Shown: positions 9,680 through 57,974 of the stretch, in pieces | Position numbering within the stretch: position 1 is the stretch's first letter | Layout: the number at the start of each line of letters is the position of its first letter | Origin: an uncultured Fodinibius sp. | GTDB lineage: Bacteria; Bacteroidota; Rhodothermia; Balneolales; Balneolaceae | Reading direction: 5' to 3' | Length of the DNA stretch: 64,000 nt | Assembly (NCBI GenBank): GCA_913056235.1 | Contig: CAJXMW010000006.1 | Coordinates: forward strand, 62,001-126,000 | Made by a program: the position numbers and the translations under genes | The notes under the pieces: model-generated | What the model saw: only the letters and a program-made list of their open reading frames with translations | What the model was told of the DNA's origin: nothing | Database searches by the model: none

Positions 9680-10024
9680 TTATTCAACCAGCGACACGGC
9701 ATCCCGTGCAATATCTCGGTTATACTCAAAAGCCAGGTTTTTGTAATTGATGATATCCACAATGGTGCCAATTGCGCAGAGCCCGCCAGTCAGCAAGTAA
9801 AGAATCCCCATACCAACCTGACCGATGATAAACCGATGTACCCCGGCTACCCCAAAAAAGCCGACAAGACAGGTAAGTAAAATAATTTGTGGGTCTTTAC
9901 GACGAGCTCGGTACACCCGCGCAAAACGGTCGGCCGTTTCGTCATCCATCGATTCCATTACTTTTGAAATATAAGCGGCCTCATCTCCCTCAAGTTCTGG
10001 TAAATAGTCTATCATCCGAGCCAT
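9680..10024 (-). CDS. TM2-domain membrane protein
   Basis: 114 residues. The N-terminal 50 are acidic and soluble; a TM2 domain follows with the motif GVAGVHRFIIGQVGMGILYLLTGGLCAIGTIVDIINY, split over two helices joined by a short Gly-rich turn. The DxxN variant of TM2 (IVDIINY) is present. It is 4 bases downstream of the DUF2752 gene, with which TM2 genes commonly co-occur. No function is known for either. Confidence 0.9.
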   Translation of the reverse strand: MARMIDYLPELEGDEAAYISKVMESMDDETADRFARVYRARRKDPQIILLTCLVGFFGVAGVHRFIIGQVGMGILYLLTGGLCAIGTIVDIINYKNLAFEYNRDIARDAVSLVE

Positions 10025-10028
10025 ATCG

Positions 10029-10325
10029 TTAAATATTTATTGTTGGTTTTTTGTGATTTTTTATCAGTAAATATAATATTCTAGTACCTAGAATTAATAT
10101 AGTAAAAGGACCTAATATATTTGATTCCATTGCATTAGAAAATTCACCTCGAAACGTATATGCAATAGCATGTCCCAATCCATCACCGGGACAAAATGTA
10201 AAGCCAAGCTGATCAAACAAGCATAAGCTGGGTCCGTTGGCAGCACTCGGATCCATCAGTGCCAGCAGTAGCAACCCAGTGCTGAAAGCAATAACTTCGA
10301 AGTATTTTCTGAAAAAGGATTTCAT
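10029..10325 (-). CDS. DUF2752 small membrane protein
   Basis: 98 residues with two membrane segments and the family hallmark FCPGDGLGHAI (a variant of CPGCGLTRA in which the second Cys and the TR are replaced). It is co-directional and 4 bases upstream of the TM2 gene. Function unknown. Confidence 0.8.
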   Translation of the reverse strand: MKSFFRKYFEVIAFSTGLLLLALMDPSAANGPSLCLFDQLGFTFCPGDGLGHAIAYTFRGEFSNAMESNILGPFTILILGTRILYLLIKNHKKPTINI

Positions 10326-10365: not shown

Positions 10366-13300
10366 TCACGGTCGTAAATTCCGCTGGAAAATATAAGACA
10401 CGCTGAGATTTATACTATTATAGCGATAAACCCGGCTTGTTGAAAAATAACCGTTCAATGAAAGCTGCCAGAAGTTACTTATTTGTGCATTAAGGCGCCC
10501 TGCTCCAACAAAGAATGCCCCATCCCTGCTGTCGCGTTTAGCCATCAGTTCGACACCGGCCGAGAAATCGGGATCATTTTGTGCATCCTGATAGCTCAGG
10601 TCCACACCTATCCCCTGTACAAAAAGTGCATCCGGGGTGTAATACGGATTACCACTGCTGTACGTAGTTTGGGCGTCGGCATAAGAAAAGTCGATCAATG
10701 GACGTATCTTGCGTTTACCTGTGGAGACCGGCCAATTGACGAAAAATCGGGACAACGCTTCGTAGGAAAAGTTGCTATCGCTAAACCAGGTGCCCCGCAG
10801 CGACAGGGCGGTTTGAATGCCCCCATTCAGCCAATAATCTTCTCGATACAGCTGCCCTTGAACCTTGCTTATATCCTGATTCAGTGCCGTGTTGGTAAAC
10901 ACAGGACTAAACTCCAGCTGTCCTGAAGTATAGGTTGAGTCCTTTGAAATCCAGTATTCAGCATGCACGCCGGGACGAAAGCTCTGATCCAGTATATATC
11001 CCCCGCCACCCAGCGTTAACTGTCTCGAGGGCTCCTGATAAGTCTGCTGATAACGGTAATCCAGGTGGTAGAGGTTATCCAGGTTACTACCGCCAATAAG
11101 ATCAGAGCTCACCACCTGCTCACTCAGCGTCACCCGATGTGTAGCATCCTGCCGGTTGCCCCACTCGGCAAACAATCCTATTTCAGCCGTTTGACTGTTG
11201 AAGTTATCAGAAGTGATGGCCGATATCGCACCGGTTTTGAATCCTTCGTAAAGTCGATATTTAGTCTGGATGGACTGCCGTAGGCTGTCTGAAAAGAAGG
11301 CCGGATATTCCCGGTAGAACGACTTTTGCTCTTGGTATCCCATGTATCCAATCTCGGTGTGTACCAGCTTCTGCGTTTGCTCGGAAGCGTTGTCTTGCTC
11401 AAAAAGCGGATATAACACCTGGTATCCCTGTTGCCGATAGTTTTCATACATCATTTGCTGCCCCACAAAAGTTCGCAATGAATCATTCTGGGGGTCTTGG
11501 TTAATATACTGCTCGCTGCGCTCCAAAAAATCGTGGTAACGCTGTTGCTGTAGCAGCCAGCTGAGCTCGGTGGTTTTTGGAATCTGATCCGTTTTTTGTG
11601 CCCATATTCCGGCCCGTGTCAACTCATTTTGATCCGCATAGCGATAGGCAATCTGAGCCGCATAAGGCCGAAGCTGTTGATCTACATACTGCGAATCCGG
11701 AAATGACTGTAGCAGCTCGATCGTTTGCAAATTTTCGGCGTTATCAATGGACTGGTGGATAGCATATGCATACAGTGAATCAGACCGAGGATTGGCGGCA
11801 ATGAGCTCCTTCAGATATTGTTCTCGCTGCTCCCACGATTCGGCATTTTCGGCCAGTTGTCTCAGAATTGCAAAATTATTTGGATTCAGCTCATATTCCC
11901 GGCGAAGCCAGCGCTCCTGATAGCTTGTGCTTGGTGTCCCAAATTGGGCAGTGAGCTTATCCTCAAACCTCAATACCAACTCATTATGATGCTTAGTCCA
12001 CAGCTTTTCGGCAAAATCATATGCATGCTGAGAAGCGTCCTCCCATCCATAGAACTTTAACAAGCGCTCAGCATCATTACTATCCCATGAGGTATTATTC
12101 ATCAGCCGGCGTTCAAGTATTGAAATCGCTACATTTACGCTGTCAAACTCCACGGCCATCTCGATGACTTTTTCCTGATGCACCTGTGAATTCGGATGAT
12201 TGCTGAGCGCTGCCAGTGCATCCTTCAAACGGGTATCTTCCCAATTACTTTGGGATTCCTCGACATTGTCAGGGGGATTCATGAATGCCCTGTAACGATC
12301 CAGTGCTTGCGCGATAACAGCTTTACCCGCAGGTTCTTGCTGATCTAGCAAAGGTAGATTGAGCGTATCGGAAGTCGTCTTAAACTGGTATAGAGCACCA
12401 TCCCAAAGTGGAGATTTTGAAAACTCGATGTTAGCTACTTTTAGCCCATTTTCCATAAGCTTTTGATTTCCACTGCCTACATATGCAAACCAATACTGAT
12501 GATCGTTGACGTTTTGTTTAGAATTCTTCAATCGAGTAGTAACACTCAGCTGCGATTCGCCAAATTTATAATAACTTTGCGTGTTGACCCAGTTTTGTAC
12601 AATGGGCGCTGATTCGCGCACGGTTAAAAAACGGGTGATTGGATACCGCTGCAACGTTTCTTCCAACCGCTGTACAAAAACCTCATAGAGCCCATAGTCA
12701 TGATCCGGGCTACTGTGCCAGCCCAGCCCCAGGGGATTTCGACTGCGATACTCATCGTCCGATCGCTGGGTCACCTGGAATACATCATCTGGGTGAATGA
12801 AGTGGGTCCAAATACCGCTGTAGAGAAATAAACTATGCTGGTTGAAGTTGGAGATCTCATTATTGACGTATCCGCTGGTGATGCGCGGGTAATCAAACAT
12901 ACTCGGTGCTAGCGGATCGGGCTCAAACTCGCGGCCTCCTCCATCCTCGACGGATGACAAGTAGAGTGAGCTCATGTATTCAATACTAGGCATTGTTTTC
13001 GTGATAGCCGCAAGCCCAAGCGAATCAATGTTGTTAGTAGGCGGAACATAAGTCACTGGGAAACTGCCAAGACTGCTGATCCTCCACCGCTTTTTGGCGG
13101 CTTGCAGTGAGGATTGCATGAACTGCATGTTTTGCCAATCCTGTCGCCAAAGCGAAAAGTGGTTATAGCCATGAAAACCCAGCTCGTGGCGCGAATCTTT
13201 GATGTCTTGAGCAATCCAAACACTGCCGTTACGGTTTCTACCCTGAATAGACAACCTGCTGTCTTCCCATTCCTTGAAATCGAAAGGTGGAACCACAACA

Positions 13301-14229
13301 GCATTGTAATTGAAAGTTAGCATGGCCGTATAGTCAATGTTAAAACGGTCGGCCAAAGCCTTCATTTCGGGCCACCATATTTTGGTCACAAAGTTGGCAT
13401 GCGTCGTGTCGTATTCCTGATCAATCGGCGGAAGTTTGGAATCATAAAGTGGAGCTGGAAAGTCATCCAGAAAAATAGTACTGGTATTGGCCACACGATA
13501 CGGCAGTCCTTCGAGCTCTTTGAGTCCGACTGAAAACAGCAGTCCGCGGTAATCCTTTTCAACTAAGACGGAGGTATTAAAGTAGATCGACCGCCCCTCC
13601 CCTATACTTCGCTCGACAATTACGGGATAATCCGGATCGTTAGCTGCAGTAGCAATAACCGATTTATCTTTAATAAATGTTGAGCCGGCAAATCCATTAT
13701 GCAGAAAGGTCGCCCGATTTCTAAAACCCTCTCCTTTAAAATCAGGAAAAACATGCTCTTTAAAGTGAAAGCCTTCAGCCTGTCGGTCTATTTGCTGATC
13801 ACTTTGGGCCTTCATACCCATCAGATAGGCAAAGCGCTCATCATAAAGGGGTGTTAAAATGACCAGCTGATTTCCTTTCGCAACAAATGTTACCAACTGC
13901 CGCACTTCCTGATCTTGTAGCTGCTCTACACGATCGGTCGTTAAATACAAAAGCTTTATTTGTTCAGGAATTTGCAGTTGTGAAGTTCCCAGCGAGAGGT
14001 CATAAGTGGTGTATGGAATGCTGGCGTAGTCAAGTGTATGGGTAACTTGCGAGGCAATATCCTGCGAAGCGGAGTCGGCTCGGTGCTTTAGAACCATTGC
14101 CAACGGCTCGGGCTTTTTATACTGTTGCCGATCCTCTTTTTGGCCTGTGGAACAACCTATACTGCAGACAAATAGAACTGCCAACAACAAGGTGATACTC
14201 AAAAAATTTTGTGGAAATCTATTCATCAA
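10366..14229 (-). CDS. PelA-like deacetylase fused to PelB-like TPR and outer-membrane barrel
   Basis: 1287 residues. A lipoprotein-type signal ends at Cys26. Residues 40-240 resemble the Rossmann-like domain that precedes the PelA deacetylase. Residues about 245-545 are a DUF2194/CE4-like polysaccharide deacetylase: FLDDFP (Asp255-Asp256), ELGFHGYNH (His353, His357) and THFIHPDD (about 475-482) supply the usual metal and catalytic residues. About 640-1010 is helical TPR-type repeat. About 1020-1287 is beta-rich, with aromatic-alternating strands to the C-terminus, like a porin barrel. In Pseudomonas, PelA (periplasmic) and PelB (TPR plus barrel) are separate; here one chain appears to combine deacetylation and outer-membrane export. 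It is the last gene of the operon and overlaps the preceding gene by 11 bases. Domain limits are approximate and the barrel is inferred from composition. Confidence 0.75.
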   Translation of the reverse strand: MMNRFPQNFLSITLLLAVLFVCSIGCSTGQKEDRQQYKKPEPLAMVLKHRADSASQDIASQVTHTLDYASIPYTTYDLSLGTSQLQIPEQIKLLYLTTDRVEQLQDQEVRQLVTFVAKGNQLVILTPLYDERFAYLMGMKAQSDQQIDRQAEGFHFKEHVFPDFKGEGFRNRATFLHNGFAGSTFIKDKSVIATAANDPDYPVIVERSIGEGRSIYFNTSVLVEKDYRGLLFSVGLKELEGLPYRVANTSTIFLDDFPAPLYDSKLPPIDQEYDTTHANFVTKIWWPEMKALADRFNIDYTAMLTFNYNAVVVPPFDFKEWEDSRLSIQGRNRNGSVWIAQDIKDSRHELGFHGYNHFSLWRQDWQNMQFMQSSLQAAKKRWRISSLGSFPVTYVPPTNNIDSLGLAAITKTMPSIEYMSSLYLSSVEDGGGREFEPDPLAPSMFDYPRITSGYVNNEISNFNQHSLFLYSGIWTHFIHPDDVFQVTQRSDDEYRSRNPLGLGWHSSPDHDYGLYEVFVQRLEETLQRYPITRFLTVRESAPIVQNWVNTQSYYKFGESQLSVTTRLKNSKQNVNDHQYWFAYVGSGNQKLMENGLKVANIEFSKSPLWDGALYQFKTTSDTLNLPLLDQQEPAGKAVIAQALDRYRAFMNPPDNVEESQSNWEDTRLKDALAALSNHPNSQVHQEKVIEMAVEFDSVNVAISILERRLMNNTSWDSNDAERLLKFYGWEDASQHAYDFAEKLWTKHHNELVLRFEDKLTAQFGTPSTSYQERWLRREYELNPNNFAILRQLAENAESWEQREQYLKELIAANPRSDSLYAYAIHQSIDNAENLQTIELLQSFPDSQYVDQQLRPYAAQIAYRYADQNELTRAGIWAQKTDQIPKTTELSWLLQQQRYHDFLERSEQYINQDPQNDSLRTFVGQQMMYENYRQQGYQVLYPLFEQDNASEQTQKLVHTEIGYMGYQEQKSFYREYPAFFSDSLRQSIQTKYRLYEGFKTGAISAITSDNFNSQTAEIGLFAEWGNRQDATHRVTLSEQVVSSDLIGGSNLDNLYHLDYRYQQTYQEPSRQLTLGGGGYILDQSFRPGVHAEYWISKDSTYTSGQLEFSPVFTNTALNQDISKVQGQLYREDYWLNGGIQTALSLRGTWFSDSNFSYEALSRFFVNWPVSTGKRKIRPLIDFSYADAQTTYSSGNPYYTPDALFVQGIGVDLSYQDAQNDPDFSAGVELMAKRDSRDGAFFVGAGRLNAQISNFWQLSLNGYFSTSRVYRYNSINLSVSYIFQRNLRP

Positions 14230-16273
14230 ACAGTTGGTTCTTTTTTCGCGGATAAATCTGGTTTAGAATGTCCCCCACTCCGGAGTCGGTCTCCCTGTTT
14301 ACAATTTCATATACCTTGGTGGATGGCCCCTCATAAAAGAGTTTGATTTTACGGTCAGGCAGTTTCTGGAAATCGGCAACCCATTGCTCTATATCCCGCA
14401 TAACGGAGGGCGAATCATACAAAATGCCTTGCTGTATGGATCCATATGGCGCTTTTTCGGTAAAAATGAATATTGAGGCCGGGGGCACCTTTTCGAGGGA
14501 TTCTGAGCCAAGCTGCTGGTGATAAGTTGAATCGATGGCAGCATATTCATCCAAAAAGTACTCGTAATCCATATAGTAGTGACGGTTTTTCGCCTGTATT
14601 CGTTGCACACCAGGCCCAACGGTTGCATAGCTGTACGGTAAGCGTTCACTGATAATTTTGTAGTAGGCCTTAAAAAAGCCGTTTGGTACCGTTGATGGCA
14701 ACATGGAACTTACCCGAATACCACCTTGCACGAAGATCAATACGGGAATGGTAATAAGCAACAATCCCCATGACAACTTATAGATAACAGATTCAGAGAC
14801 CGCCTCTAGACGATACAGGATTTCGAGCGGCACAACAAAGGTTATACTGGCAAAAACCCCGATGAGCACGGCAAAAAACTCATTCAGCTGATCGGTATCA
14901 ATCCAAAACAATTCACCGATGTCCAGTAAGGGAGTATATCGCAATGCAACCAAGACAAAAATTATCAGGAAAATACATTCGTCGCGGACATATTTTCGGC
15001 CACTGACAAAATAATCCACGGCAAAATAGAGCATCAATATACCCGCTACAAGGATGTATATGTAGCTCAACTCATCCATGGGAAGTACGAGAGATGGAAA
15101 ATAGGTGTAGGCCTGGATATCGTAGAGCTGGGTTAAGAAAAATTCAGTTGGACTAATGTCCTGGATATAACTCATAACGAGAAATGGCAACAGAACGATA
15201 ATGCTTAGCGAAAGTAGGTATCCGGACACGCGGTAGAAAGACTTCAAATACCTCCTGCGTGGCAGGCTGAGCAACCCCAGAAACATCAGTGGCAGCAGAA
15301 TGATAAACGCCACGAAGAGATTGATAAAGGCGGTGGCTATAAATCCAGAGAGCACATAAAACCAAGGGCTTTTAAATTTTGAGCGTAAATTCCGGATAAA
15401 AATAGTTATGGTAGGAAACGCAAAACAGAGCGCAAGATCCAGGCTGCTGGCTTCGACCTGTTGATCGAGCGAAATGGGCAGAAATAACATCGGCACCAAG
15501 GCATAAATCGACATCCCCATTATAGGAGCCAGCGGGTATCGATTTTTAGTAAGGTCACGAGCTACCCAATACACCAGAATGCACAGGAAAAAGCTGGACA
15601 ATGCACCCAGCAAGTGCAGAATCATTTCAGGGCTGACCTGCGTAAGCATACTAAAAATGCTAACCAAGGAGTGCATACCCCCGGGGCTTGGAAACTGTAA
15701 AAAGTAATCCTGCAGCCTCAACTCCTTAACCCTGTTGAGATGTTCAAACCATCCCCGGTTAAAGGGCGCGGCATGATTCAAAGCGGGATACATCCGAATT
15801 AAGGTGCCGGCCAGAGCGATACCCAAAACCAGCGTCCACTCGCTGAGCTCTCGGTATCCTACTTTAAAGAAAGTCGTGAATTTTGATTTAAATGCCGTCC
15901 AGTAGGTTTGATTATCATTCTCAATTATTCTGAGTTGCCTTACCAATGTTTTGAGCTCCCATTGCTCAAAATATTCTCGAACACTTTTGGCATCACTCCG
16001 ATAGATGTTAATAATCAGTGGGATAAGCAGCAACGTCACTGCAATACTGATAAAATCGTACAAATGTAAAACAGTGAGCACGAAAATTGAAAACACGATA
16101 ATACCGCCGAGTCCAACCCAGGAGTAAATTAACTTCTCGATATTGGGCTGATCACGGGTATGCGACAGGAACAGCGGACCGATTAAACCAAACAACAGCA
16201 CAAACCAAAATACAATACGTACTGCTGCAAATAGTGCTTCTGCTATGTATGGCAATTGCGATATAACTTCCAC
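14219..16273 (-). CDS. large multipass membrane protein of the Pel-like operon (possible GT-C-fold enzyme)
   Basis: 684 residues with about 13-15 membrane helices and a soluble C-terminal third (about 540-684). A conserved extracytoplasmic loop, MYPALNHAAPFNRGWFEHL (about 183-201), followed by QFPSPGGMHSLVS, is also kept in the decayed paralogue at 23.3-24.5 kb. Long loops between early helices with a soluble tail are reminiscent of GT-C glycosyltransferases, but I see no definite catalytic motif. There is no Pseudomonas Pel counterpart of this size, so it may substitute for PelE or add a modification. Overlaps the PelA/PelB-like gene by 11 bases. Confidence 0.6.
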   Translation of the reverse strand: MEVISQLPYIAEALFAAVRIVFWFVLLFGLIGPLFLSHTRDQPNIEKLIYSWVGLGGIIVFSIFVLTVLHLYDFISIAVTLLLIPLIINIYRSDAKSVREYFEQWELKTLVRQLRIIENDNQTYWTAFKSKFTTFFKVGYRELSEWTLVLGIALAGTLIRMYPALNHAAPFNRGWFEHLNRVKELRLQDYFLQFPSPGGMHSLVSIFSMLTQVSPEMILHLLGALSSFFLCILVYWVARDLTKNRYPLAPIMGMSIYALVPMLFLPISLDQQVEASSLDLALCFAFPTITIFIRNLRSKFKSPWFYVLSGFIATAFINLFVAFIILLPLMFLGLLSLPRRRYLKSFYRVSGYLLSLSIIVLLPFLVMSYIQDISPTEFFLTQLYDIQAYTYFPSLVLPMDELSYIYILVAGILMLYFAVDYFVSGRKYVRDECIFLIIFVLVALRYTPLLDIGELFWIDTDQLNEFFAVLIGVFASITFVVPLEILYRLEAVSESVIYKLSWGLLLITIPVLIFVQGGIRVSSMLPSTVPNGFFKAYYKIISERLPYSYATVGPGVQRIQAKNRHYYMDYEYFLDEYAAIDSTYHQQLGSESLEKVPPASIFIFTEKAPYGSIQQGILYDSPSVMRDIEQWVADFQKLPDRKIKLFYEGPSTKVYEIVNRETDSGVGDILNQIYPRKKNQLFDE

Positions 16274-16293
16274 TTGGTAGAAAATTTGTCGGG

Positions 16294-17133
16294 TTACTGT
16301 TGACTTGGCCGCACGCCTGGGAGACTATCCAGTTCTATTGAGCTAATAGAATATGGAATATTTAATGTATCTAATCTTTTGGTAGCCAAACTCTTAAGAC
16401 TATTGCCTTTTGCAAAATCTAAAATAAGGAAGGGTTTGCCGAATTGGCTTTTATAGTCATTAATTGTACTAACTTTTTCTCGGTACTCATTTTCAGGCCG
16501 CAATTGATACTCCTGCTTTTTAAAATCATAGTTCGTAGCAACATCTTCGATCAACACAGCATCTATCAATTTCTGCGTTTGGTCCAGCAAGAAGAGCCCA
16601 GCGTTCTGCACAATCACAGCCTCAGGATATTTTTTCCGGATTTTGGCAATCACATCCACCATATGTGGCTGCAGGTGACTTCGCTCGCTGTAGGGAGCCA
16701 CATCGTCGATGGTATCCAAAAACAAACCGTCAAAACCTTTGGCCATTATATTGGGGACCACCCTGTCCACTAAAATTGACCTTGTTTTAGAGTCAGCCAG
16801 ATTTAAAAACGGACTGTCCCAGTTTTCATTTACTCCAAGGAATCCCCGCTCCTCAAGCAACGGATAATACCATCGATATTTATTGACCTCACCGAGAGAA
16901 ATATACCCAAGCAGGGTATTATCAGCAGTGTTCAAAGAATCGACCTGTCGCCGGGAATAATAATCTGATTCTACAATCAGTAGCTTGTATTGGTTGCCCA
17001 CCTTTTGCAGGTTTTCTATTCGCCCGTAGGAAACTGCAAAAGGTGAATAATCAGTTGGAGCAACAGTGGATTCGGTATTTTGGCAACTATCTAAAATAAA
17101 AATAGAAAATATTATTAATACTATGTATCGCAT
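16294..17133 (-). CDS. GH114 endo-alpha-1,4-polygalactosaminidase-like lipoprotein
   Basis: 279 residues. A short signal peptide ends ILDSC (lipobox-like, Cys near residue 17). A TIM-barrel of the GH114/TM1410 family follows: LLGYISLGEV, KGFDGLFLDTIDDV with the acidic pair, QNAGLF, and LIEDVATNYDF carrying the expected catalytic Glu. In P. aeruginosa this activity is the N-terminal domain of PelA and trims Pel polymer in the periplasm; here it is a separate lipoprotein. It lies 4 bases after the HD-GYP gene. A close, intact paralogue is at 24541-25395. Confidence 0.85.
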   Translation of the reverse strand: MRYIVLIIFSIFILDSCQNTESTVAPTDYSPFAVSYGRIENLQKVGNQYKLLIVESDYYSRRQVDSLNTADNTLLGYISLGEVNKYRWYYPLLEERGFLGVNENWDSPFLNLADSKTRSILVDRVVPNIMAKGFDGLFLDTIDDVAPYSERSHLQPHMVDVIAKIRKKYPEAVIVQNAGLFLLDQTQKLIDAVLIEDVATNYDFKKQEYQLRPENEYREKVSTINDYKSQFGKPFLILDFAKGNSLKSLATKRLDTLNIPYSISSIELDSLPGVRPSQQ

Positions 17134-17137
17134 ATAG

Positions 17138-18739
17138 TTACTGATTCTGTCCTATTTCACATATTTGTTCCCAACCGATGTCATTCATCATTTCTACTAC
17201 GGTTGAGACCAACTCCATATCAAACTGAACCTCTGCCCTTTCAAGCAGTGAAGATACCAACTCCTGAAGTTTTTCCTCCGGGCTTTGGGAGCCACTATCA
17301 TTTGGTGATTCAATATACGCCGTAATGTATTCAAAAAGACCAACCACCTTGCCTGTTATTGGGATGTCGTCACCTTTGATTCCGTTGGGGGTACCTGACC
17401 CATCAACCCACTCGTGGTGTGTGCGAATACCCTGCTTTACGTCATCATCAATCGGTAGATTGTTGACAAGGCGTTCCCCAAGCAGCGGATGCTCGAGGTC
17501 CCCACCCACCGTGCGATAATCTTTAAATTGATGTACGCCCAGATAGCCGATGTCATGCAACTTCGCCGTCAGGAGTATGTGTTGTTTGTCCTCGCTGCTT
17601 AGACCGTGATAATCTGCAAAGGTAGAACTTAATGCCATAACCCGGTCGGTATGGTACTTGGTTCGACCCCACTGCTGCTCGAGCTCACGCAGCATGCGAT
17701 AATAAGTGTCAATTATTTGATCAGAAAGCTGGTGCCGCTGATCTCGGTGTTTTAACATCTCTTCCAGTGTATTCAGAATCGTCGGATAGGTATCAGAGTT
17801 AAGCAATGCCTTTTTATCAGCTTCAGCCAATCCCATCATCAATACCGTACGTTTATTTTCGGTATCAAACCGCTCAAACACTAGGCTTTGCTTTTCGGCC
17901 AAATCGAGCTGGGTTTTCAAATGGGATTTAAAATCGGTCGAATCATTCTCAGAAGGTTCAAAGTCGAGTACCGTATTTATAAATTCCTTATCCAAATTTG
18001 CCTGGGCAAGTACCAGTGGATCCTCTTCTAATTCAACCAAAGCAGCAAAGCGGGCTTTTTTCACATTTGTAAGATGTCGGAGCATCACTTTCAGATGCCC
18101 CCTCACCTTAAAGCTGTCGGCAGTTAGAATACCGATTTTCTTTTCAAGCTTCTCCTGTACCAGATCCCGGGCATCCTCTTCAGCTTGATGTAGTTCAAGC
18201 ATCCAGCGAGAGAGTATGCGCCCAATAATGGAGAGCCGAGGAATAATGACTTCAGGACTTTCGACATACGGACCTGTGCAATAAATTCCCTGAAATTCAT
18301 CATCATGAATAAGCGGAATACGATAGCAGTTGCCAATAGGAAATGAGGAAACACCCTTTTCTTTCAAATCACTGGTAATCGGTATTTGCAGTTCAAGATT
18401 ATCCAGGCGTTGCTCAAACTGACTTACCTTTTCTTTACGATCACTCTTGGAAAGCTGTTTAAGCGACAACTTTGTCTTTAGATTATGGGAAAGAACCTTC
18501 CGATGTTGGAGTTTAAGCTTCCCGCTTCCCTCCTTGAGATACACAAAATGGACCGGTGCATCATACAGGATATCCATCCACTCTACCACATCCTTGAATG
18601 AGGGTGTCTCTTCCCGGGAAAGGTAGTCAGCCGCCTGCACCCAGAATTCGATTTCATCTTCCACTCCGAATGACTCGAGTGAAAATGCTGTACCTAGTCG
18701 TTTGGCAATCGTCTGTACGTACTTGGTAACGTCTTTCAT
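17138..18739 (-). CDS. GAF-like plus HD-GYP domain protein in the Pel-like operon
   Basis: 533 residues, soluble. Residues about 30-330 look like two GAF-type sensory modules joined by a helix. About 340-533 is an HD-GYP domain: His363, the HD pair at 395-396 (KLHDIGYLG), EHP at 416-418, HH at 441-442 and HHEWVDGSGTPNG at 441-453. All metal-binding positions are present, but the GYP triplet reads GTP. HD-GYP enzymes hydrolyse c-di-GMP. In Pseudomonas, Pel synthesis is switched on by c-di-GMP bound to PelD (GAF plus degenerate GGDEF); here an HD-GYP protein occupies the regulatory position, between the exporter and GH114 genes. Whether it degrades or only senses the nucleotide is open. Confidence 0.8.
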   Translation of the reverse strand: MKDVTKYVQTIAKRLGTAFSLESFGVEDEIEFWVQAADYLSREETPSFKDVVEWMDILYDAPVHFVYLKEGSGKLKLQHRKVLSHNLKTKLSLKQLSKSDRKEKVSQFEQRLDNLELQIPITSDLKEKGVSSFPIGNCYRIPLIHDDEFQGIYCTGPYVESPEVIIPRLSIIGRILSRWMLELHQAEEDARDLVQEKLEKKIGILTADSFKVRGHLKVMLRHLTNVKKARFAALVELEEDPLVLAQANLDKEFINTVLDFEPSENDSTDFKSHLKTQLDLAEKQSLVFERFDTENKRTVLMMGLAEADKKALLNSDTYPTILNTLEEMLKHRDQRHQLSDQIIDTYYRMLRELEQQWGRTKYHTDRVMALSSTFADYHGLSSEDKQHILLTAKLHDIGYLGVHQFKDYRTVGGDLEHPLLGERLVNNLPIDDDVKQGIRTHHEWVDGSGTPNGIKGDDIPITGKVVGLFEYITAYIESPNDSGSQSPEEKLQELVSSLLERAEVQFDMELVSTVVEMMNDIGWEQICEIGQNQ

Positions 18740-18751
18740 AAATATGTAGAT

Positions 18752-20380
18752 CTAAAAAGCTGAATAGTAGTAATAATCCAGTCGTTTGAAGAATTTTCGT
18801 GCAAAAAGTCCCGATACCACCGCAAAACAAATGGAGCCGGCCATAAGCCCAATCGTTGCATATTCCAGGGCAATCACGCGGCTGCAAATGAAGCCCACGA
18901 AAAAATTGACTGTTAATCCCGCTAACATGGAATACATCGAGAATGCGGGCTTGTTTAAGGTGAAAAAGAAGAGTGCATTCAGCAAACCGATATTCAAAAA
19001 TACGTACGATATACTGGCCAGCCAGAATACCTTTGTCGTCATTGGGTTCGCAAAGAAATCTCGTATTTCTGGCACCTTATTCTGGAACATGCGCAGGCTG
19101 TCAACGGCAAAGTAAGTTAACAGGATAGAAACAATGCTAAAGCCGATAAGCAATGCCAGCTGGCGGAAGTAAAATTTCCTGTAATAATCATTAAACGCTT
19201 TGAGCTGACTGAATTTGGCTTTTTCCTGTAAGGGTACTAAATACTTTGAGAACGCTTGTATGCTGTACTCTAGCACGGCTACGCTCAGCACAAGCGTCAG
19301 CAACGCCCAGTCCATTCCAAGCTCATAGGGCGTGTTAAACCAGATAATATATGGTGGTGGGGGCGGACCAGCCGACCAAGCCAAAATCCGATCAACAAAC
19401 AGAAACAGGAAGTAGCCCAACCCATAAATGAAGTAGCGATAATTTACGTAATAGCGAACTTCCGGCTTTGGTAGTGTTTGCTTTACTGAACCCTGATGAG
19501 TCGATCTAATTTTAAGGTTGAACACCAAGTACGCATAACCAGCCAACAGCAGTATCGTAGCCGCCATAGCAATCCACTGTGACAGGTAAATTCCGAGATT
19601 CAGTACCTCCATGTTGAACAGAACGATCAAAGTCCCCAAGATAATAATCACCAGAATGGAAACCTGTCGCTCTAGGGCATACAACACCCCCGAGGCCAAC
19701 AAAAGCAGGCTAATCAGGATCATATAGACCAGTCCCAGCGTAATCATCGCGTTGGGATAGAATGGAATCAGGAGATTAATCAGGAATAGCGCCACAGTAG
19801 CTACTCCTACCGTTATAACTCCGGCGCCCAGAATCTGCTTGGTAGACTCATACGCCAGGTAGAAATTATCACTACTCTTATAGCTGGATACCGACCGCCC
19901 AAGTACCTGGATAAATCCGCCGGTAAGTACAAATGCAGTGATCGTTCCAAAAGCCACAACGGTTGCCTGTGCCTCATTAAACTCCAGCCAAGCCCATAGC
20001 GAATAACGGAATACAATTACGGCGGCAATTTGGCTGATCATCGGCAGTGAAAAAAGCAATCCTTTGCCGTAATGCCGCAAGAAAAAGGTCAACTGTTCCC
20101 AAATGCTGGGACTTTCAATCTTTTCTTCCAGCGACTCCGTCTGAGACTCCTGCTCTTCCCGGGCCTCTTGCTTCAGCTCATCGTATATTTCATCGGCCAG
20201 CTCAAAAATCGATTCATAGCCAAAGTCCTCTCGGACATCCACTTCGCGAACGCCCAGGGATTCGATCGTGGCCGCTACCGCCCATGTACTCAACGGATTG
20301 CCCACCAGATTTTTGACCTCCCGTTTGAGTTTACCGACGTTATCAATGGTTAAATTTTCAATATCGTGCAGTTCAGACAT
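18752..20380 (-). CDS. pelG: PelG-like polysaccharide exporter (MOP/flippase type)
   Basis: 542 residues. An N-terminal soluble extension (about 1-105, acidic, with a Gln/Glu-rich linker) precedes about 12 membrane helices. Segments such as FRYSLWAWLEFNEAQATVVAFGTITAFVLTGGF and WFNTPYELGMDWALL are shared with the paralogue at 25.4-26.8 kb. Size, topology and operon position match PelG, the inner-membrane Pel transporter; Pseudomonas PelG has about 456 residues, so the N-terminal extension is extra. Overlaps the PelF gene by 8 bases. Confidence 0.8.
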   Translation of the reverse strand: MSELHDIENLTIDNVGKLKREVKNLVGNPLSTWAVAATIESLGVREVDVREDFGYESIFELADEIYDELKQEAREEQESQTESLEEKIESPSIWEQLTFFLRHYGKGLLFSLPMISQIAAVIVFRYSLWAWLEFNEAQATVVAFGTITAFVLTGGFIQVLGRSVSSYKSSDNFYLAYESTKQILGAGVITVGVATVALFLINLLIPFYPNAMITLGLVYMILISLLLLASGVLYALERQVSILVIIILGTLIVLFNMEVLNLGIYLSQWIAMAATILLLAGYAYLVFNLKIRSTHQGSVKQTLPKPEVRYYVNYRYFIYGLGYFLFLFVDRILAWSAGPPPPPYIIWFNTPYELGMDWALLTLVLSVAVLEYSIQAFSKYLVPLQEKAKFSQLKAFNDYYRKFYFRQLALLIGFSIVSILLTYFAVDSLRMFQNKVPEIRDFFANPMTTKVFWLASISYVFLNIGLLNALFFFTLNKPAFSMYSMLAGLTVNFFVGFICSRVIALEYATIGLMAGSICFAVVSGLFARKFFKRLDYYYYSAF

Positions 20381-21944
20381 TGGCCTCCACCCTTTCCATC
20401 ATTTGGCAAACGGATGGTAGTTCGATCTCTCTCTTCAGGGGCTCATCATTACGCTCGTGAAATGCCTGATATACATCATAATAGTTGTCAACCGATTTGT
20501 TTATAGTGTACTTCAGCAGTACCCTGGACCGGGCCTGACGTCCCAGTTCAATACGAAGCTCATCATCATTTAATAATTTTATAACTCCATCGGCCAACTC
20601 TCTGGGAGCGCGTGGTTTACATAGTACGCCACAGCCTTCCACTGCTTCGCTAACACCGCCGACATCTGTGGCTACGACGGGTCTTGAACAGCTCATCGAT
20701 TCCAACACGGTGTACGGAAATCCCTCCGATATGGAACTTAGTATAGAGATGTCACCCTCGTTAAAGATTTCACTGGGTGTATCGTGATACCCACCAAAGG
20801 TGAAATTATCTTCGAGGTTCAATTTTTCGACAAGTTTCCTGCACTTTTTCACGTAGGGCTTGTCCACCTCTAGACTTCCATAAATGATGTATTGCACATT
20901 CGGAATTTCACGACGCACAAGATCGCATGAATAGATCATAGTCTCGATATCCTTGAGCGGAAAAACGTGCGCTACTGCCACAACGGTCGGCTGGTCCTGC
21001 GTGTGCTTAGGCTTTGGCTGTGGACGAAAAAGCTCGGTATCTACGCCATTGTAAATTGGCCGGATTCGCTCCTCAGGGGCTTCAAACTCCCGTTCCCATT
21101 TGGCATTGATGGAAGTGACCGGCGAAATAAGGTCGGCATGATGATACACCACCCGTGTCATAAAGGTCGCCAGGTCGACCAGCAGCTTTTTAGAAAAAAA
21201 CGGCATATCTGTCTGGCTGACGTTTATCAGCCGCTCACGGATATATACCCCATGATCGGTAACCACCATTGGGGTGCCATATTCATACTTGGCCACAATT
21301 GACGCAATGGCCGGAAATCCTGCCAGAGTCGCATGACTAGCACTTACATTAGGGATTGACACCGCCAGCGGCATCATAAAGTGATAGAGCCAACGCATTC
21401 CGAAGGTTACATCCAGTATGCGTGGTTCTTCGGCAACAGAATAACTGCCATTGTTCATCACTTTTTGTTGAAGACGCCGCTTGAATTCAGTCCACACCAA
21501 GGGATCTGAGAGCGTTTTCTTGTAGTCGTGATGCTGGAAAAATTTCCAAAAGCCATAAATAAGCTCTCCACATTCATGGGCAGGCTGAAAAGGATCAAAT
21601 AGGCGATCAAGAAAATCCCGAAACATCGGCATAAACAGCTTCTCAAGAGCTAAATTGCCGGTTTCAGACTTCCGCAATACATGCTCCGAAAACGGTGTCT
21701 GTTCATCAAAATGACTAATCGGCTCCTCCACGCCCCACAGCGGCACATGGATAATGGACTTGATATTAGACGTCATCCGATAGCGTGACTCCACAAACGG
21801 GTTGCCGGTAAGAGCCAGCAGTACGAAATCTACCCGATCTTCAAGCTCGCTGCACAGAATATGCGCCCAGGTGGAGACTCCGCCTCCCGAGTAGGGATAC
21901 GACCCCTCCGTTTCAAATAAGATAGTCGGTTTATCCTTATCCAA
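20373..21944 (-). CDS. pelF: PelF-like GT4 glycosyltransferase
   Basis: 523 residues, cytoplasmic. The N-terminus has the PelF/DUF3492 signature FETEGSYPYSGGGVSTWAH. The C-terminal GT-B half has EGFPYTVLE (E-x7-E motif of GT4 retaining enzymes) followed by RPVVATDVGGVSEAV. PelF polymerises the Pel backbone from UDP-linked amino sugars. The gene overlaps the preceding GT by 8 bases and pelG by 8 bases, so translation is coupled across all three. Confidence 0.85.
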   Translation of the reverse strand: MDKDKPTILFETEGSYPYSGGGVSTWAHILCSELEDRVDFVLLALTGNPFVESRYRMTSNIKSIIHVPLWGVEEPISHFDEQTPFSEHVLRKSETGNLALEKLFMPMFRDFLDRLFDPFQPAHECGELIYGFWKFFQHHDYKKTLSDPLVWTEFKRRLQQKVMNNGSYSVAEEPRILDVTFGMRWLYHFMMPLAVSIPNVSASHATLAGFPAIASIVAKYEYGTPMVVTDHGVYIRERLINVSQTDMPFFSKKLLVDLATFMTRVVYHHADLISPVTSINAKWEREFEAPEERIRPIYNGVDTELFRPQPKPKHTQDQPTVVAVAHVFPLKDIETMIYSCDLVRREIPNVQYIIYGSLEVDKPYVKKCRKLVEKLNLEDNFTFGGYHDTPSEIFNEGDISILSSISEGFPYTVLESMSCSRPVVATDVGGVSEAVEGCGVLCKPRAPRELADGVIKLLNDDELRIELGRQARSRVLLKYTINKSVDNYYDVYQAFHERNDEPLKREIELPSVCQMMERVEANV

Positions 21945-23143
21945 CGTACGTTTCTGTAGATTTTATCAGTTTGTTCAGTATCGCCCGATATTCTTCAAAT
22001 ATATTTTCCCAGGTGTGGTGTTTGACAACCAGCTTGTGTCGACTTTGGACCATCCCCTTCCATCGCTCTGGTTGTTGCCACAGTTCTAGTATCTGCTCAA
22101 CCAAAGTTTCTACAGAAGTTTCTCGATCGACAATTAGACCGTACTTCTCTGAGACATCACCGGCTTGCCACCCAATAGGCAAAACGTTTCGAGCTAACGC
22201 CTCAAACAGCACCAGCGGCTGCGACTCATTGTGACTAGTGATGCAGAGCGCATCCAGCCGGTCGATATATTCCTCTGCCGATCGGTTCCAAACCAAGTCA
22301 AGCTGCGGGTAGTCTCTGCTTCGTTCCTTAACACTAGCCGCCAATTCTGGTTCATTAGCATCACAAGCGAGCATAACAAACTGTACCTCTTGCTCGCTTA
22401 TAGTCGTAAATGCTTCAATAACATCAAAAAATTTGAGCGGATTCTTCATCTCCGCACAGCGACCAACCCATCCTACTGTAATCTTCTTGCTATCACTCCT
22501 ATGAGAGGATTGTAGCCATTCCTTGGGAATGCCGTTGGGAATATATTGAATATCTGTAGCCCCACGTTTTCGCTGCTCGGGAATATTACATTCTGATACC
22601 GAAATCACAATATTTGATGCCGAGTAAATTTCCCGGGCCATCGAATCGAACATACTTACAAAGTTTTGCTTGCTGTGTTCTTCATTCGGCACTTTATAAC
22701 CGCACTCCAGAGCGACTGCCCCCATATCAATTTCTTTCCAGTAAAGAGCGTGTTCGGTCAGCAAAAGAGGTTTTTGGGTGGCCTCGGCCACTTCTTTGCC
22801 CAGCCATCCGGCAAAACCCGTGTTGGCAATATGAATGAGATCCGTATTAGAAGCTACCGGCACAACATCCTCCCAAACATTTTGTTTCCAATGTTGGGAT
22901 TCTGTTCTCCAGTCGTTGGTCAAGTCAGGCGGCGGAATCCGGGTAAAAGATTCCACATGCCCCGGCACGCTGTATAACGCGTCATCGATGGTAGCATTGA
23001 GGTACTGATCGGTAGCAACCTGCAGGATATGAAAAATAGTATCATCAAAAGCCTGCACATATTGATGCACCCACTCGCTTACCCCCCCCGCGGTACCAGG
23101 GATAAGTTCCCTCAATAACCAACAAGAGTTCTTTTTTGCCCAT
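21937..23143 (-). pseudogene. second PelF-like GT4 glycosyltransferase, frameshifted at an 8-G tract
   Basis: The long frame (TTG at 23226 to 21937) begins with about 30 residues that do not resemble the family. Reading instead from an ATG at 23143 gives, in another frame, an N-terminus with LLLVIEGTYPWYRGG, the PelF signature. The two frames meet exactly at eight C on the plus strand (23082-23089, eight G in the coding strand); seven G would join them as RGGVSEWVHQ. The rest is a normal GT4 with ESQPLVLFE (E-x7-E) near residue 355. So the gene is one base out of frame as given: phase variation, recent loss or a sequencing error. It would be the first gene of the Pel-like operon. Confidence 0.85.
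23082..23089 (-). repeat. homopolymeric G8 tract at a frameshift site
   Basis: Eight consecutive C on the plus strand within the first 60 bases of the PelF-like gene. A one-base contraction restores the PelF-type reading frame. Position and base composition fit a slipped-strand-mispairing switch. Confidence 0.75.
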
Positions 23144-23272: not shown

Positions 23273-24516
23273 TTAACCATTGACTATAACTACATTTTTC
23301 GGGGCAAAATAAAGGAAATTCCGACATCTCAGTGTTTCAATGGGCCGTATTAACAGCGGGTAGTAGTTGTAAGACTGTATATAGAAAAACTGGCTGAGCA
23401 GGAACGATTCAAAACTGACTCCATAGTATAATGAGCCAACCAAAAATGGTATTGCTATCAGGATGCCAACCAAGCCCAGGTAGACTGCCATTTTATTTAT
23501 CGTCCGGCTAAAATAATTTGTTGGCACAATCACAAAACCCAGTAACAAGAGTGGCAGAAGAAGCGCTAACGTCACAAACAGGTTGGTCATAGCTGTAGCC
23601 ACAAAACCACTACAGACATAAAAACAGTAATGAGGTTGTTCCCGCCGAAGGCTTCGAATGGATATGATAAAGGTGGGCAGGGCAAAACACAGAGCCAGAT
23701 CCATACTGCTAACTTCTATTTGTTGATCCAACGAGATTGGTATAAACAGCATGGGCACCAAAGCATAGACCGAAACTCCCATGAGAGGTGCCCAGGAGTA
23801 TTTCTTTTTTGTAATATCACCGGCAACCCAATAAATAAAAATACAGAGAAAGAAGCTTGAAAGTGCACCCAGCAAATGTAAAATCATCTCGGGACTTACC
23901 TGCGTTAGCATACTAAACAGGCTTACAATTGCATGCATGCCACCGGGCTCGGGATATCCTGAAAAATAATCTTGCATGCGTAGATTCTTAATAAGATTGA
24001 GCTCTAAAAACCATCCCCGGCTAAAAGGAGCAGCATTGGTTAACGCAGGATACATGCGGGTTAGGTCCCCTATGGTAGCAATCCCTAATAACAAGCGCGC
24101 TCTTGCTGTTATAAAGTCTGCGGATCGAAAATTTGTTCTTAGGTTGATCCCGAGCTGAATGCAAGAGGCTTTTGGCTCCCTTTTTCGATTAGCCGGATAT
24201 GCCATATAACTGTGCGGTGTTCCCAACTACTGAGATAACCGACAATACTTGCCTTATGGTGCCATAGTTTTATCACAAGGGGGATAAGTAGTAGCGTTAA
24301 GCAAACACTAAAAAAATCATAGAGTTGAAGCAGGCTTAGCATCATAACAGAAATGGTGATAATGCCACCGAGGCCTACCCATGCGTAGATTAACCGATCA
24401 ATAATCGGCAGTTTGTGCGTCTGCGAGAGGAACAAAGGAGCGACGATCCCAAACAGTAATAAAACGGCGGCAGCAAAAAATACTTCAAAGGAATATGGCA
24501 TGTCGGTTATCAACAA
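23273..24516 (-). pseudogene. decayed paralogue of the large Pel-operon membrane protein
   Basis: Two overlapping frames (24516-24139 and 24226-23273) together match the first 55-60% of the 684-residue membrane protein, including RMYPALTNAAPFSRGW, PGGMHAIVSLFSMLTQVSPEMILHLLGALSSFFLC and YALVPMLFIPISLDQQ. A frameshift near 24.15-24.2 kb separates them. Similarity stops at about 23333, after which the frame ends in unrelated residues, so the C-terminal third is deleted. Not functional as a full protein. Confidence 0.85.
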
Positions 24517-24540
24517 TTCTATTGCTCCAGGACGTGGTCT

Positions 24541-25395
24541 CTACTTAATCCCGCTTGAAATTCCCTGGGATATATTATTTAGTTCAATATTACTTATAAA
24601 ATAAGAGTAAGGTATTCTATCTAACCTATTGACTGCCTTGCTACTAATACTATCAGAAATAGCAAAATCAATAATTAAAAAAGGGAGGTTTGTCAGTTTT
24701 TGATACTTATCAAGAGTATCGACGCGAGCTTGATAATCTTCTTCGTCCCGCAGGTAATAACTGCTAGTCTCAAAATCATAGTTTGTTGCAATATCTTCGA
24801 GTAGTACCGCATCAATAAGCGTTTGTGTTTCTTCCAACAGGAATAACCCGGCATTTTGAATGATAAAAGCATCGGGATAACGCTTTCTGATTTCTTCGAT
24901 CATTTGCAGCATATAGGGTTGCAGGTGTGCGCGCTCGGTATGTGGAGCAACATCATCAATGGTATCCAGAAATAGCCCATCGTACCCTTTGATCATAATG
25001 CTGGGTACCACCTGATCAAGCATGATTGATCGTGTTACTGAATCAGCCAGGTTCAGATAGGGGCTGTCCCAGTTTTCGTTAATGCCTAAAAAGCCCCGCT
25101 CTTCAAGCAGAGGATAATACCACCGACCCCGGCTCACCTCTCCCAGTGAAATATAAGCTAGTACTTGATTGTCAGTGGTCTTAAACGAATTGGTTTCTAC
25201 TTTGCTGTAATGACTAGACTCAACGATAAGCAATTTATATTTTTGACCTATTGCCAATCGATTCTCAATACGCTCATAACTAGCAGCAAACGGTTCCAAC
25301 GCTTCATTCTCCTCCATTGTACTTGACGTGCTGTTACATCCCCACTGTGAGACAACAAGGCATAACATGATGAGTACTCTTGTCCCTTTTTGCAT
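24541..25395 (-). CDS. second GH114 polygalactosaminidase-like lipoprotein (apparently intact)
   Basis: 284 residues, clearly paralogous to the 16.3-17.1 kb gene over the whole length. A signal peptide ends SQWGC (Cys near residue 20). Catalytic-region motifs are conserved: YISLGEV, KGYDGLFLDTIDDV, IIQNAGLFLL, LLEDIATNYDF. It is the only gene of the second Pel-like locus without a visible lesion, suggesting retained function or too little time to decay. Unlike the first locus, no HD-GYP gene lies between it and the pelG relic. Confidence 0.85.
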   Translation of the reverse strand: MQKGTRVLIMLCLVVSQWGCNSTSSTMEENEALEPFAASYERIENRLAIGQKYKLLIVESSHYSKVETNSFKTTDNQVLAYISLGEVSRGRWYYPLLEERGFLGINENWDSPYLNLADSVTRSIMLDQVVPSIMIKGYDGLFLDTIDDVAPHTERAHLQPYMLQMIEEIRKRYPDAFIIQNAGLFLLEETQTLIDAVLLEDIATNYDFETSSYYLRDEEDYQARVDTLDKYQKLTNLPFLIIDFAISDSISSKAVNRLDRIPYSYFISNIELNNISQGISSGIK

Positions 25396-25416
25396 TTATC
25401 CCTCATTTTTTGATTT

Positions 25417-26772
25417 CTAGAATGTTGAGTAGTAATAATAATCCAGGTTTTTAAAGAACTCTCGTGTAAAGAGTCCGGAAACGACTGCAAATGCCACTGA
25501 TCCCGCTAAAAGTCCCAGAGTAGCATACTCAAATGATATAATTCGGCTGCAAATAAATCCCACCGTTACATTAGTGACCAGCCCACATAAAATGGAATAC
25601 ATAGCATAGGACGGCTTATTAAGAGTGAAAAAAGCACATGCAACAGCCCAATGTTTAGAAATAGGTACGAGATGCTCGCCATCCAAAACACCTTGGTGGT
25701 TATGAGGTTGGCAAAGAAGTCTCTAATTTCAGGTATCTCATGCCGAAATACTCCTTACAACATAGTAGCTTGTAACCATTGCCAGGATACCCACCAGGAT
25801 TACAAGCCCCAGTTGCTTAAAGTAGAAGTAAATATGATAATCGTTGAATTGCTGCAGCTGATGAAATTCTGCACTCTTTTGAAGCTTGAAAATATTCCTG
25901 GAAAAGCTATGAACGCAATACTCAAGCACAGCAATACTAAAGACCAGCGTCAGGATAGCCCAATCCATCCCCAGCTCGTATGGCGTGTTAAACCATATAA
26001 TATACGACGGCGCAGTAGTCCCCGTGGACCAAGCCAGGATTCGATCCACAAACAGAAATAAAAAATACAGAGCACCGTACACAAAGTAGCGGTAATGCAC
26101 AAAATAGCGTATTCCCGGTGCCGGGAGAGCATATTTTTTTAAATCTTGGTTACTTCTTTGGATTTGCAACCACAGTACCAGATACGCATAACCGAACAGC
26201 ATAAAGGAGGTCACCAGCAAGGCAGTCCAATGGGACAGGTAAATTCCCATTTTTAGCACTTCCATATTTAGATAAACCATTAACGTACCTAAAATAATGA
26301 TAATTAGAATTAATATACGGCGCTCAAAAGCAAAAAGCACTCCCGAGCCCAGCAAAAGCAAGCTGATCAGCGTCATATATATCAGCCCCAAATGAACCAT
26401 TGGCTGGGGATAAAATGGAAGTAGGGCATTTAAAAGCCCGAAAAACAGTGCCGCACCGATAACACAGGCAAGAGCAAGTAATACTATCTTATTGGCCGAT
26501 TTAAGTGCAAGTGTATAATGCTCTGCCCGGATGTGCTTTGTCACCGACCGGCCCCGCACCTGCATAAATCCGCCAGTTACCACAAAGGCTACAATAGTTC
26601 CAAAAGCTACCATGGTAGCCTGGGCCTCATTAAAATCCAGCCATGCCCAAAGTGAATACCGAAAAATAAAGATTGCCAAAATTTGGCTCATCATAGGAAG
26701 CAAAAAAGCCAGCCCCTTGACATAATGTTTAAGGAACAACCGGAGCTCTTCCCTAAGATTTGAGCCTGTCAA
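25417..26772 (-). pseudogene. decayed pelG paralogue
   Basis: A frame at 26772-25738 matches pelG from about residue 90 to 430, and 25686-25417 matches the last 75 residues. Between them the sequence continues in other frames (EIPEIRDFFANLITTKVFWMASISYLFLNIG), showing at least two frameshifts, one near 25745 and one at a T run near 25640. The N-terminal 90 residues are missing and the frame is joined out of phase to the pelF fragment, marking a deletion junction near 26770. Confidence 0.85.
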
Positions 26773-53253: not shown

Positions 53254-53254
53254 A

Positions 53255-54127: not shown

Positions 54128-54143
54128 ATCGATCGTTGCCTAA

Positions 54144-55838: not shown

Positions 55839-55859
55839 GGGGATACGTTATATATTAAT

Positions 55860-57119: not shown

Positions 57120-57208
57120 CTGTAGATTATAACTAGCTTTTGATTATTTGCAAATAACGTGTTGTAAAGAGCTGATTTTACCCCGGTTGTTACGAAACAA
57201 AATAATTT

Positions 57209-57884: not shown

Positions 57885-57974
57885 AATAAATTCTCCGATT
57901 ATCCTTTTGCTAACCCCATAAAAACGTTTAATGTTAACGATTTTTTAAGTATCACCTAAACGTCTAAGAGTTTT

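Follow-up and report, generated by a model that had tools for sequence, protein, structure and literature searches.

The 64,000-nucleotide stretch of contig CAJXMW010000006.1 analyzed here (forward-strand positions 62,001 to 126,000; hereafter the window) comes from an uncultured, halophilic Fodinibius sp. of the Balneolaceae and contains, at 10366-23143, an operon that represents a genuine and conserved form of the Pel exopolysaccharide system. Pel is the textbook biofilm polymer controlled by cyclic di-guanosine monophosphate (c-di-GMP). We consider it likely that the operon encodes a Pel-type machinery for polymer synthesis and secretion that belongs to a separate branch within the Bacteroidota, whose Balneolaceae form is probably run without c-di-GMP by means of a non-canonical HD sensor. 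Its seven minus-strand genes overlap or lie at most 20 bases apart, and the gene calls of the initial annotation, which had proposed a Pel-like operon with a rebuilt gene set, hold. The base composition of the operon is about that of the rest of the window, and a genome-wide search of the host genome (3.97 Mb, 98.4% complete) found DUF3492 in four places, all in the window region. The assignments differ in strength: polymerization, deacetylation and trimming genes are well supported, and the export half fairly so; for c-di-GMP-independent control through a worn HD-GYP protein, the genomic pattern is strong and the mechanism is a proposal; the chemistry of the polymer and the roles of the GT-C-fold and HD proteins are inferred.

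Polymerization is represented by the two PelF-like glycosyltransferases, the inner-membrane step by the PelG-like exporter and chain cleavage by the GH114 glycosidase, all of which the initial annotation had named and our searches confirm. PelF itself (GT1; 20373-21944, minus strand), a cytoplasmic GT4 glycosyltransferase, scores 155.5 bits against the NCBIfam PelF model NF038011, whose cut-off is 100. The second GT4 glycosyltransferase (GT2; 21937-23143, minus strand) exceeds the DUF3492 cut-off and, at 84.7 bits, falls under that of the PelF model. The acid pair of the EX7E motif, the GT4 signature, is kept in all 80 GT1 rows and all 23 GT2 rows of our alignments. The exporter gene (18752-20380, minus strand) is assigned through its family, five of 12 aligned members matching PF16933 (best 2e-9); the window protein is 74% identical to that of Fodinibius halophilus and 67% to that of F. 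salsisoli, the nearest named relatives. The GH114 protein (16294-17133, minus strand), the counterpart of the PelA hydrolase domain, matches PF03537 over its cut-off (3.7e-13), and its best solved structures are PelA chains (5TCB, 4.3e-9; 9CGY, 5.1e-9). Residues D140 and E196 align with two PelA acids 58 residues apart, which fits D160 and E218 in the available part of PMC12022489. Both are present in 81/81 GH114 sequences of 241-309 residues, the length range to which the count was confined. The gene is split into two frames in one locus (L023). A crude lipobox pattern occurs in 64/84 fusion proteins (described below) but in only 16/103 GH114 proteins, and lipoprotein status is not claimed for GH114 generally.

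The last gene of the operon (10366-14229, minus strand) encodes a fusion of a PelADA-type de-N-acetylase (residues ~32-571), tetratricopeptide repeats (TPR) and a C-terminal predicted beta-barrel. Residues 32-571 match DUF2194 at 2.8e-70, over the cut-off, and a profile of ten relatives finds 9ZAU in the PDB at an E-value of 1.1e-63. This structure is Bacillus cereus PelADA, described in the available portion of PMC13254593 as a de-N-acetylase of alpha-1,4-N-acetylgalactosamine (GalNAc) oligosaccharides that is needed for pel-dependent biofilm. All 85 fusion sequences longer than 1200 residues keep D255, D256, H353, H357, P397, N399, R449, H479, D481 and D482, which correspond by motif, in that order, to D262, D263, H350, H354, P405, N407, R458, H488, D490 and D491 of the enzyme as given in that same portion of PMC13254593. 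A proteobacterial-style PelA (CE21) was rejected as the source of the deacetylase, only 9ZAU being strong in the profile search. In the middle of the fusion, a weak TPR-like profile match to solved structures (1e-4) is found, and the fusion of the rearranged locus L066 has a clear TPR and a C-terminal PgaA_barrel match that is weak and under the cut-off (0.0064). By a crude, home-made measure, alternating strand-like segments average 5.5 in the last 340 residues, compared with 2.0 in shuffled sequences and 0.8 in the TPR region, and the count exceeds the shuffled mean in 84/84 fusion proteins. The second half is predicted to be PelB-like by its architecture. Of the PelA/PelB-like fusion originally proposed, the deacetylase, TPR and predicted barrel stand, and only the deacetylase half of PelA lies inside it. 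Because PelA deacetylase and PelB interact in Pseudomonas aeruginosa, and deacetylation is enhanced thereby (PMC12022489, in its available part), the protein would be a fusion of known partners. Among 394 sampled genomes of the phylum, the window's included, 45 have a DUF2194 match, 27 over the cut-off and 26 full-length, in frames of 1268-1349 residues. An identical fusion C-terminus is found in the F. halophilus record (L077) and in genome G274 of the window's genus (L069).

The gene at 14219-16273 (minus strand) encodes a 684-residue membrane protein for which a possible GT-C-type fold had been suggested, and a good model with matching folds bears this out. By sequence, Pfam DUF6541 is matched in one case of 15 (4.3e-6) and the PDB gives nothing credible. 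The AlphaFold2 model, built from 43 sequences, has a predicted local distance difference test score (pLDDT) of 84.3 and a predicted template modelling score (pTM) of 0.86. Foldseek ranks 1-20 are OST/STT3, PglB, AftA, DPY19, ArnT and Pmt structures. VIA-align, which takes a second look at Foldseek's own candidates, aligns 425 residues to yeast STT3 (8AGB) with a Z score of 21.6 and a root-mean-square deviation of 8.4; its list has only GT-C enzymes or glycosylphosphatidylinositol transamidase subunits as far as row 48 (Z 9.6), after which Z drops to 5.1 in row 49. The matched core begins at about residue 139, behind three further long helices. The protein resembles the GT-C glycosyltransferases STT3/PglB, ArnT and PMT in its fold and C-terminal soluble domain, and differs from them in the lack of a credible PDB sequence match and, in the window's branch, of an acid after the first core helix. 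Position 167, directly after that helix, is Asp in 61/61 sequences outside the branch, including the one at L145, a second, divergent Pel-type locus of F. sediminis. Within the branch it is Asn in 19, His in four and Ser in one, with Asp in 0/24 (the window and loci L079 and L080 included). From its place alone in the model, position 167 is a candidate for the catalytic Asp found in the first external loop of GT-C enzymes. D459 (42/43) and D461 (40/43) are conserved in both branches. The protein occurs in 15/148 phylum genomes scanned, the window's included, and its synteny suggests that it may be a constant partner of PelG.

How widely is this arrangement kept? We compared 105 loci (14, 11 and the best 80 of 124), of which 89 are distinct; they were fetched via DUF2194 or the membrane protein, so that the presence of both is partly by construction. 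The complete core (PelF, PelG, GH114, membrane protein and fusion) is present in 78/89 distinct loci, and the other 11 start less than 180 bases from a record edge. The order PelF-PelG-(HD)-GH114-GT-C-fusion is found in 76/78, with GH114 upstream in L066 and L145. This conservation, in Balneolaceae and Flavobacteriaceae alike, rules out a chance assembly of the region, the outcome that the initial annotation had said would overturn it. Likewise, a scan of viral contigs with PelG gave no relative and, the base composition being window-like, a phage or mobile origin was rejected. The proposal of a distinct Pel-like lineage is supported by the conserved synteny, the separate PelA-type hydrolase, the PelADA-type fusion and the unrecognized PelC, PelD and PelE; the lineage extends beyond Balneolota and Rhodothermota, Flavobacteriaceae being included.

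Two components are confined to part of this range. GT2 is detected by profile in 22/78 complete loci, 21 on the operon strand and one (L145) on the opposite strand, a count that leaves out an extra 401-residue glycosyltransferase of L066 scored as GT1. The HD protein is present in 21/78. A quick PelG tree, thinned to 60 of 79 distinct rows, places Balneolaceae, the groups f10 and f30 and L145 on one side of a single branch and Flavobacteriaceae and Roseivirga on the other; the HD label changes three times on it, against a shuffled mean of 15.7. We rejected the idea that Asp167, GT2 and HD co-vary as repeated events, as they follow essentially one deep split on this tree and are not independent evidence. 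L066 and L145 are long, unsurely placed branches. L145 has a 1586-residue fusion, no HD gene, Asp167 and, upstream on the other strand, a gene with kinase ATPase, receiver and AraC-type domains. In the operon of L066 (f30), a GAF-SpoIIE phosphatase adjoins a GAF-HD-GYP protein that still has GYP. Two loci titled Bifidobacterium breve (L134) and Sphingobacterium thalpophilum (L115) sit among the Flavobacteriaceae-type loci, L134 within Flavobacterium on the tree, and are probably mislabelled or mixed metagenome bins.

Does a Pel-derived machine imply a Pel polymer? Operons of this kind could use Pel-derived machinery to make a different product, with GT2 and the GT-C-fold protein adding other sugars, so that the Pel name would be chemically wrong. 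Of the alternatives, we regard this one as the most serious, if still improbable. The GT-C-fold protein is present in 78/78 complete loci, GT2 joins it in the 22 counted above, and the available text of PMC7112194 warns that divergent loci may yield another polymer. Against this alternative, the catalytic residues that were checked in the deacetylase and in the hydrolase are those of enzymes shown to act on alpha-1,4-GalNAc polymers.

How, then, is the system controlled? The gene between PelG and GH114 (17138-18739, minus strand) encodes a GAF-GAF-HD protein that we propose as the regulator replacing PelD. It matches HD_5 at 5.9e-14, over the cut-off, and is the sole HD_5 protein of the genome. 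Its model contains two GAF-like parts, read from secondary structure, and an HD domain; the family member in L066 has a GAF_2 match (2.6e-10). Structure matches are PmGH (4MCW, E 4.1e-9), 9RBZ (TM score, TMt, 0.70 by fold) and other HD-GYP proteins, and the best sequence match is 5Z7C, the cyclic GMP-AMP (cGAMP)-specific HD-GYP enzyme V-cGAP3. The initial description of an HD-GYP protein is accordingly right as to homology; the motifs are degenerate and the protein belongs to one branch only. In the 22 distinct in-operon proteins, the window's included, the HDIGK motif reads HDIGY in 19, HDIGL in two and HDVGM in one, with the lysine in none, and GYP is kept in one and lost in the window. We take the metal ligands, and the roles of the residues aligned with them, from PmGH. 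In 22/22, Glu stands where the last Asp ligand would align, and the loop that follows HD is changed as well; H363, H395, D396, H417 and H441 are kept, and H442 is Gln in 3/22. The lysine and GYP are both present in four comparison HD_5 proteins, which come from genomes of f10 and f30; five loci were meant as canonical for this comparison, of which L167 yielded no frame and was dropped, and L161 has HE rather than HD.

A strong genomic pattern around this protein suggests control without c-di-GMP. It is established that every diguanylate cyclase has a GGDEF domain. No GGDEF match was found in the window genome (8/14 controls match), and none over the cut-off in any of 92 Balneolaceae genomes (66 with completeness of 90% or more and contamination of 5% or less); weak matches of 20-22 bits were seen in two. 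HD_5 occurs in 21 of the 92, one protein each, and all 21 lie 3.1-3.6 kb from a DUF2194 match. DUF2194 is over the cut-off in 24/92 (G394, G396 and G403 of these lack HD_5), and HD_5 is found in 0/68 of the remainder. Outside the family, the genomes with an in-operon HD protein have GGDEF matches (six each in G011 and G016 of f10, one in G243 of f30), and four carriers of the operon without the HD protein (G304, G130, G134 and G320) have neither GGDEF nor HD_5. Judged by its sequence, the HD protein is degenerate also in relatives with c-di-GMP and persists in Balneolaceae without detectable GGDEF.

A second alternative is that the HD protein has kept phosphodiesterase activity and acts on c-di-AMP or a nucleotide resembling 3',3'-cGAMP instead of c-di-GMP. 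Like the phosphodiesterases PmGH and V-cGAP3, it has an HD domain, a GAF-type sensory part and most ligand-aligned positions; its closest sequence is the cGAMP-specific enzyme, and the window genome has two diadenylate cyclase domains, which makes c-di-AMP possible as a ligand. It departs from both enzymes at the HDIGK lysine, at GYP, at a single ligand position and in the loop that follows HD, and no GGDEF partners over the cut-off accompany it in Balneolaceae. The universal loss of the lysine and replacement of the ligand Asp by Glu, together with the occasional loss of H442, may impair activity, and we hold an active enzyme to be doubtful, with perhaps one chance in a few.

The immediate neighbors of the operon bear on its state in the window strain. 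Downstream lie genes for two small membrane proteins, a DUF2752 protein (10029-10325, minus strand) and a TM2-domain protein (9680-10024, minus strand), and two small same-strand genes of this size are found downstream in 16/18 distinct Balneolaceae loci. Upstream of GT2, the same 18 loci have a receiver-histidine-kinase gene in 16 and, in all 18, a gene for a receiver with a C-terminal GAF-like stretch, the GAF reading being our own. F. halophilus and F. salsisoli keep the receiver-GAF gene, and the kinase gene is absent beside their operons. The window locus is without both regulator genes of its relatives, and a search of the window genome with the 310-residue F. halophilus receiver-GAF protein gave 16 matches, all within residues 1-145 and the best at 44 bits. 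Upstream, the stretch 23273-27088, which the first annotation passed over, holds the decayed remains of a second, partial set of the operon genes, whose pieces are 47-70% identical to their counterparts in the main copy. By comparison with the main copy, all on the minus strand, it comprises the N-terminal part of PelF (a decayed 111-residue frame with a DUF3492 match, 26753-27088), a larger decayed piece of PelG (25738-26772, 58.5% identical to the main PelG) and its decayed C-terminal piece in another frame (25417-25686), the GH114 gene (24541-25395, the only intact frame), and decayed N-terminal (24139-24516) and truncated middle (23273-24226) pieces of the GT-C protein. Its PelG and GH114 have no HD gene between them, and the same holds for F. 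roseus (L080).

GT2 itself is broken near its start. Read from the originally assigned ATG at 23143, its frame is lost at a run of eight G (23082-23089; C on the plus strand) within the conserved RGGVSEW stretch, which is intact and read through in 22/22 distinct relatives. Together with the decayed duplicate and the want of a receiver-GAF orthologue in the genome, this break could mean that the operon is on its way out in the window strain, which we think unlikely. Apart from GT2, all six genes have open frames, and the catalytic residues of the enzymes are in place; the eight-G run can be a phase-variable switch or an assembly error; and F. halophilus and F. salsisoli are likewise without the kinase gene beside the operon.

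What has become of PelC, PelD and PelE? As first annotated, none is recognized in the operon, with the limits that there is no PelC profile, that PelE was unsearched, and that the PelD profile PF16963 matched neither the genome nor any of the 14 controls and is so uninformative. PelD carries a GGDEF-derived domain, and its apparent absence is read from the content of the operon and from the lack of a GGDEF match in the genome. An ordinary Pel system with PelD and PelE encoded elsewhere, for which those uninformative or missing searches leave room, is very improbable given that a GGDEF-derived PelD should have been matched unless very degenerate and that no second locus exists, all four DUF3492 places lying within the window.

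Set beside known systems, the operon combines features of several. It shares with P. aeruginosa pelABCDEFG the PelF and PelG proteins, a PelA hydrolase domain with both acids, a periplasmic deacetylase and, by prediction, a TPR and barrel export protein; here, in contrast, PelA is split, with the hydrolase free and a PelADA-kind deacetylase fused to the export part, a GT-C-fold protein is added, and PelC, called a hallmark of Gram-negative Pel in the available part of PMC12141448, is unrecognized along with PelD and PelE. The Gram-positive pelDEADAFG operon of B. cereus ATCC 10987, as far as PMC7112168 and PMC13254593 are available, has PelADA, a separate PelA-hydrolase-like gene, PelF and PelG in common with it, and differs in that PelADA is fused here to TPR and a predicted barrel, that a GT-C protein and, in one branch, an HD-GYP-like protein are present, and that PelD and PelE go unrecognized. 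PMC7112168 reports that streptococcal PelD has no GGDEF domain in species for which use of c-di-GMP is not known, which provides a precedent for decoupling from this nucleotide, and that bifidobacterial pel loci contain a dual cyclase/phosphodiesterase gene. In Fusobacterium nucleatum, one expression table in the available part of PMC9848294 lists DUF2194, pelF, pelG and endo alpha-1,4 polygalactosaminidase genes as jointly lowered; the locus numbers of its DUF2194 and polygalactosaminidase genes (RS04350 and RS04325) are close to each other, and the table gives none for pelF and pelG. DUF2194 with Pel genes is therefore not unique to Bacteroidota. The available parts of PMC7112168 and PMC7112194 make no mention of Bacteroidota loci, a deacetylase-porin fusion or an in-operon GT-C or HD-GYP protein, and in the main text of PMC7112194 the words Bacteroidetes and HD-GYP occur zero times. 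Among the titles and abstract beginnings listed, no Bacteroidota Pel operon with these parts appeared, which does not prove its absence from print.

Several observations weigh against a Pel-type system run without c-di-GMP by the HD protein. The window PelG alone has no Pfam match. In the fusion, profile comparison of the second half with solved structures gives mostly TPR-like matches, no barrel and no PelB, and an aromatic last residue is found in only 7/84 proteins (76/84 have one within the last 12), which counts against a classic barrel end. The model of the HD protein is middling (pLDDT 74, pTM 0.51). Its gene is missing from 57/78 complete loci, those of Fodinibius L080 and L145 included, and also from the L079 stretch where it is expected; since it is absent from so many, the core works without it. 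As the HD protein occurs in f10 and f30 genomes with GGDEF, its ancestor may have answered c-di-GMP. The operon of the window strain may be impaired, GT2 being frame-broken and the receiver-GAF orthologue without a full-length match. Finally, GalNAc as the sugar is a presumption from sequence.

We nonetheless propose the following route for a Pel-type operon of this branch. From its family, PelF would build the polymer in the cytoplasm, and PelG, whose constant partner would be the GT-C-fold protein, would carry it across the inner membrane. The periplasmic deacetylase half of the fusion would strip acetyl groups and feed the chain to its own TPR and barrel half, which would export it through the outer membrane. 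GH114, whose catalytic residues are kept, would trim the chain. The HD protein would be a non-canonical sensor controlling the PelF-PelG step, via its GAF domains or a nucleotide other than c-di-GMP, and in most relatives its input would come from the adjacent receiver-kinase and receiver-GAF proteins. Tentatively, and at somewhat under even odds, we suggest that the Pel machine outlived the loss of c-di-GMP: an HD-GYP-derived protein would have replaced PelD, already worn while c-di-GMP was still made, as in f10, and would in Balneolaceae now read another signal, while the GT-C protein would have lost its candidate acid as GT2 joined, so that a periplasmic sugar step may have moved to the cytoplasm.

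Some neighboring genes stand apart from this account. In Flavobacterium, a gene of ~510 residues upstream of PelF was considered as a replacement regulator and rejected, being a helicase in L111, the sole one scanned. In L111, a convergent gene at 14019-15650, beside the Pel-type operon, encodes a DUF4832/DUF4874 protein that carries a type IX sorting tail (L111 was the only locus scanned for it), and several other Flavobacterium loci have a same-sized gene at that place; according to PMC7112168, DUF4832 also accompanies the pel genes of streptococci and clostridia as an accessory. Elsewhere in the window, the gene at 40726-43323 encodes an 865-residue protein in which alpha/beta hydrolase, VTT membrane and ATP-grasp domains are joined, and is followed by genes for an acyltransferase and then a GNAT/FeeM-like protein. 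At 51313-63296, genes that read as type IV pilus-like or type II secretion-like end with an O-antigen-ligase-like Wzy_C protein.

A widespread Bacteroidota form of the Pel system would reveal what the machine retains, and its Balneolaceae members would provide a natural test of how switching of a Pel-type system can work when c-di-GMP is absent. For DUF2194 it suggests a function as the Pel deacetylase, and it links to Pel a so far unnamed family of membrane proteins present in many marine and halophilic bacteria.

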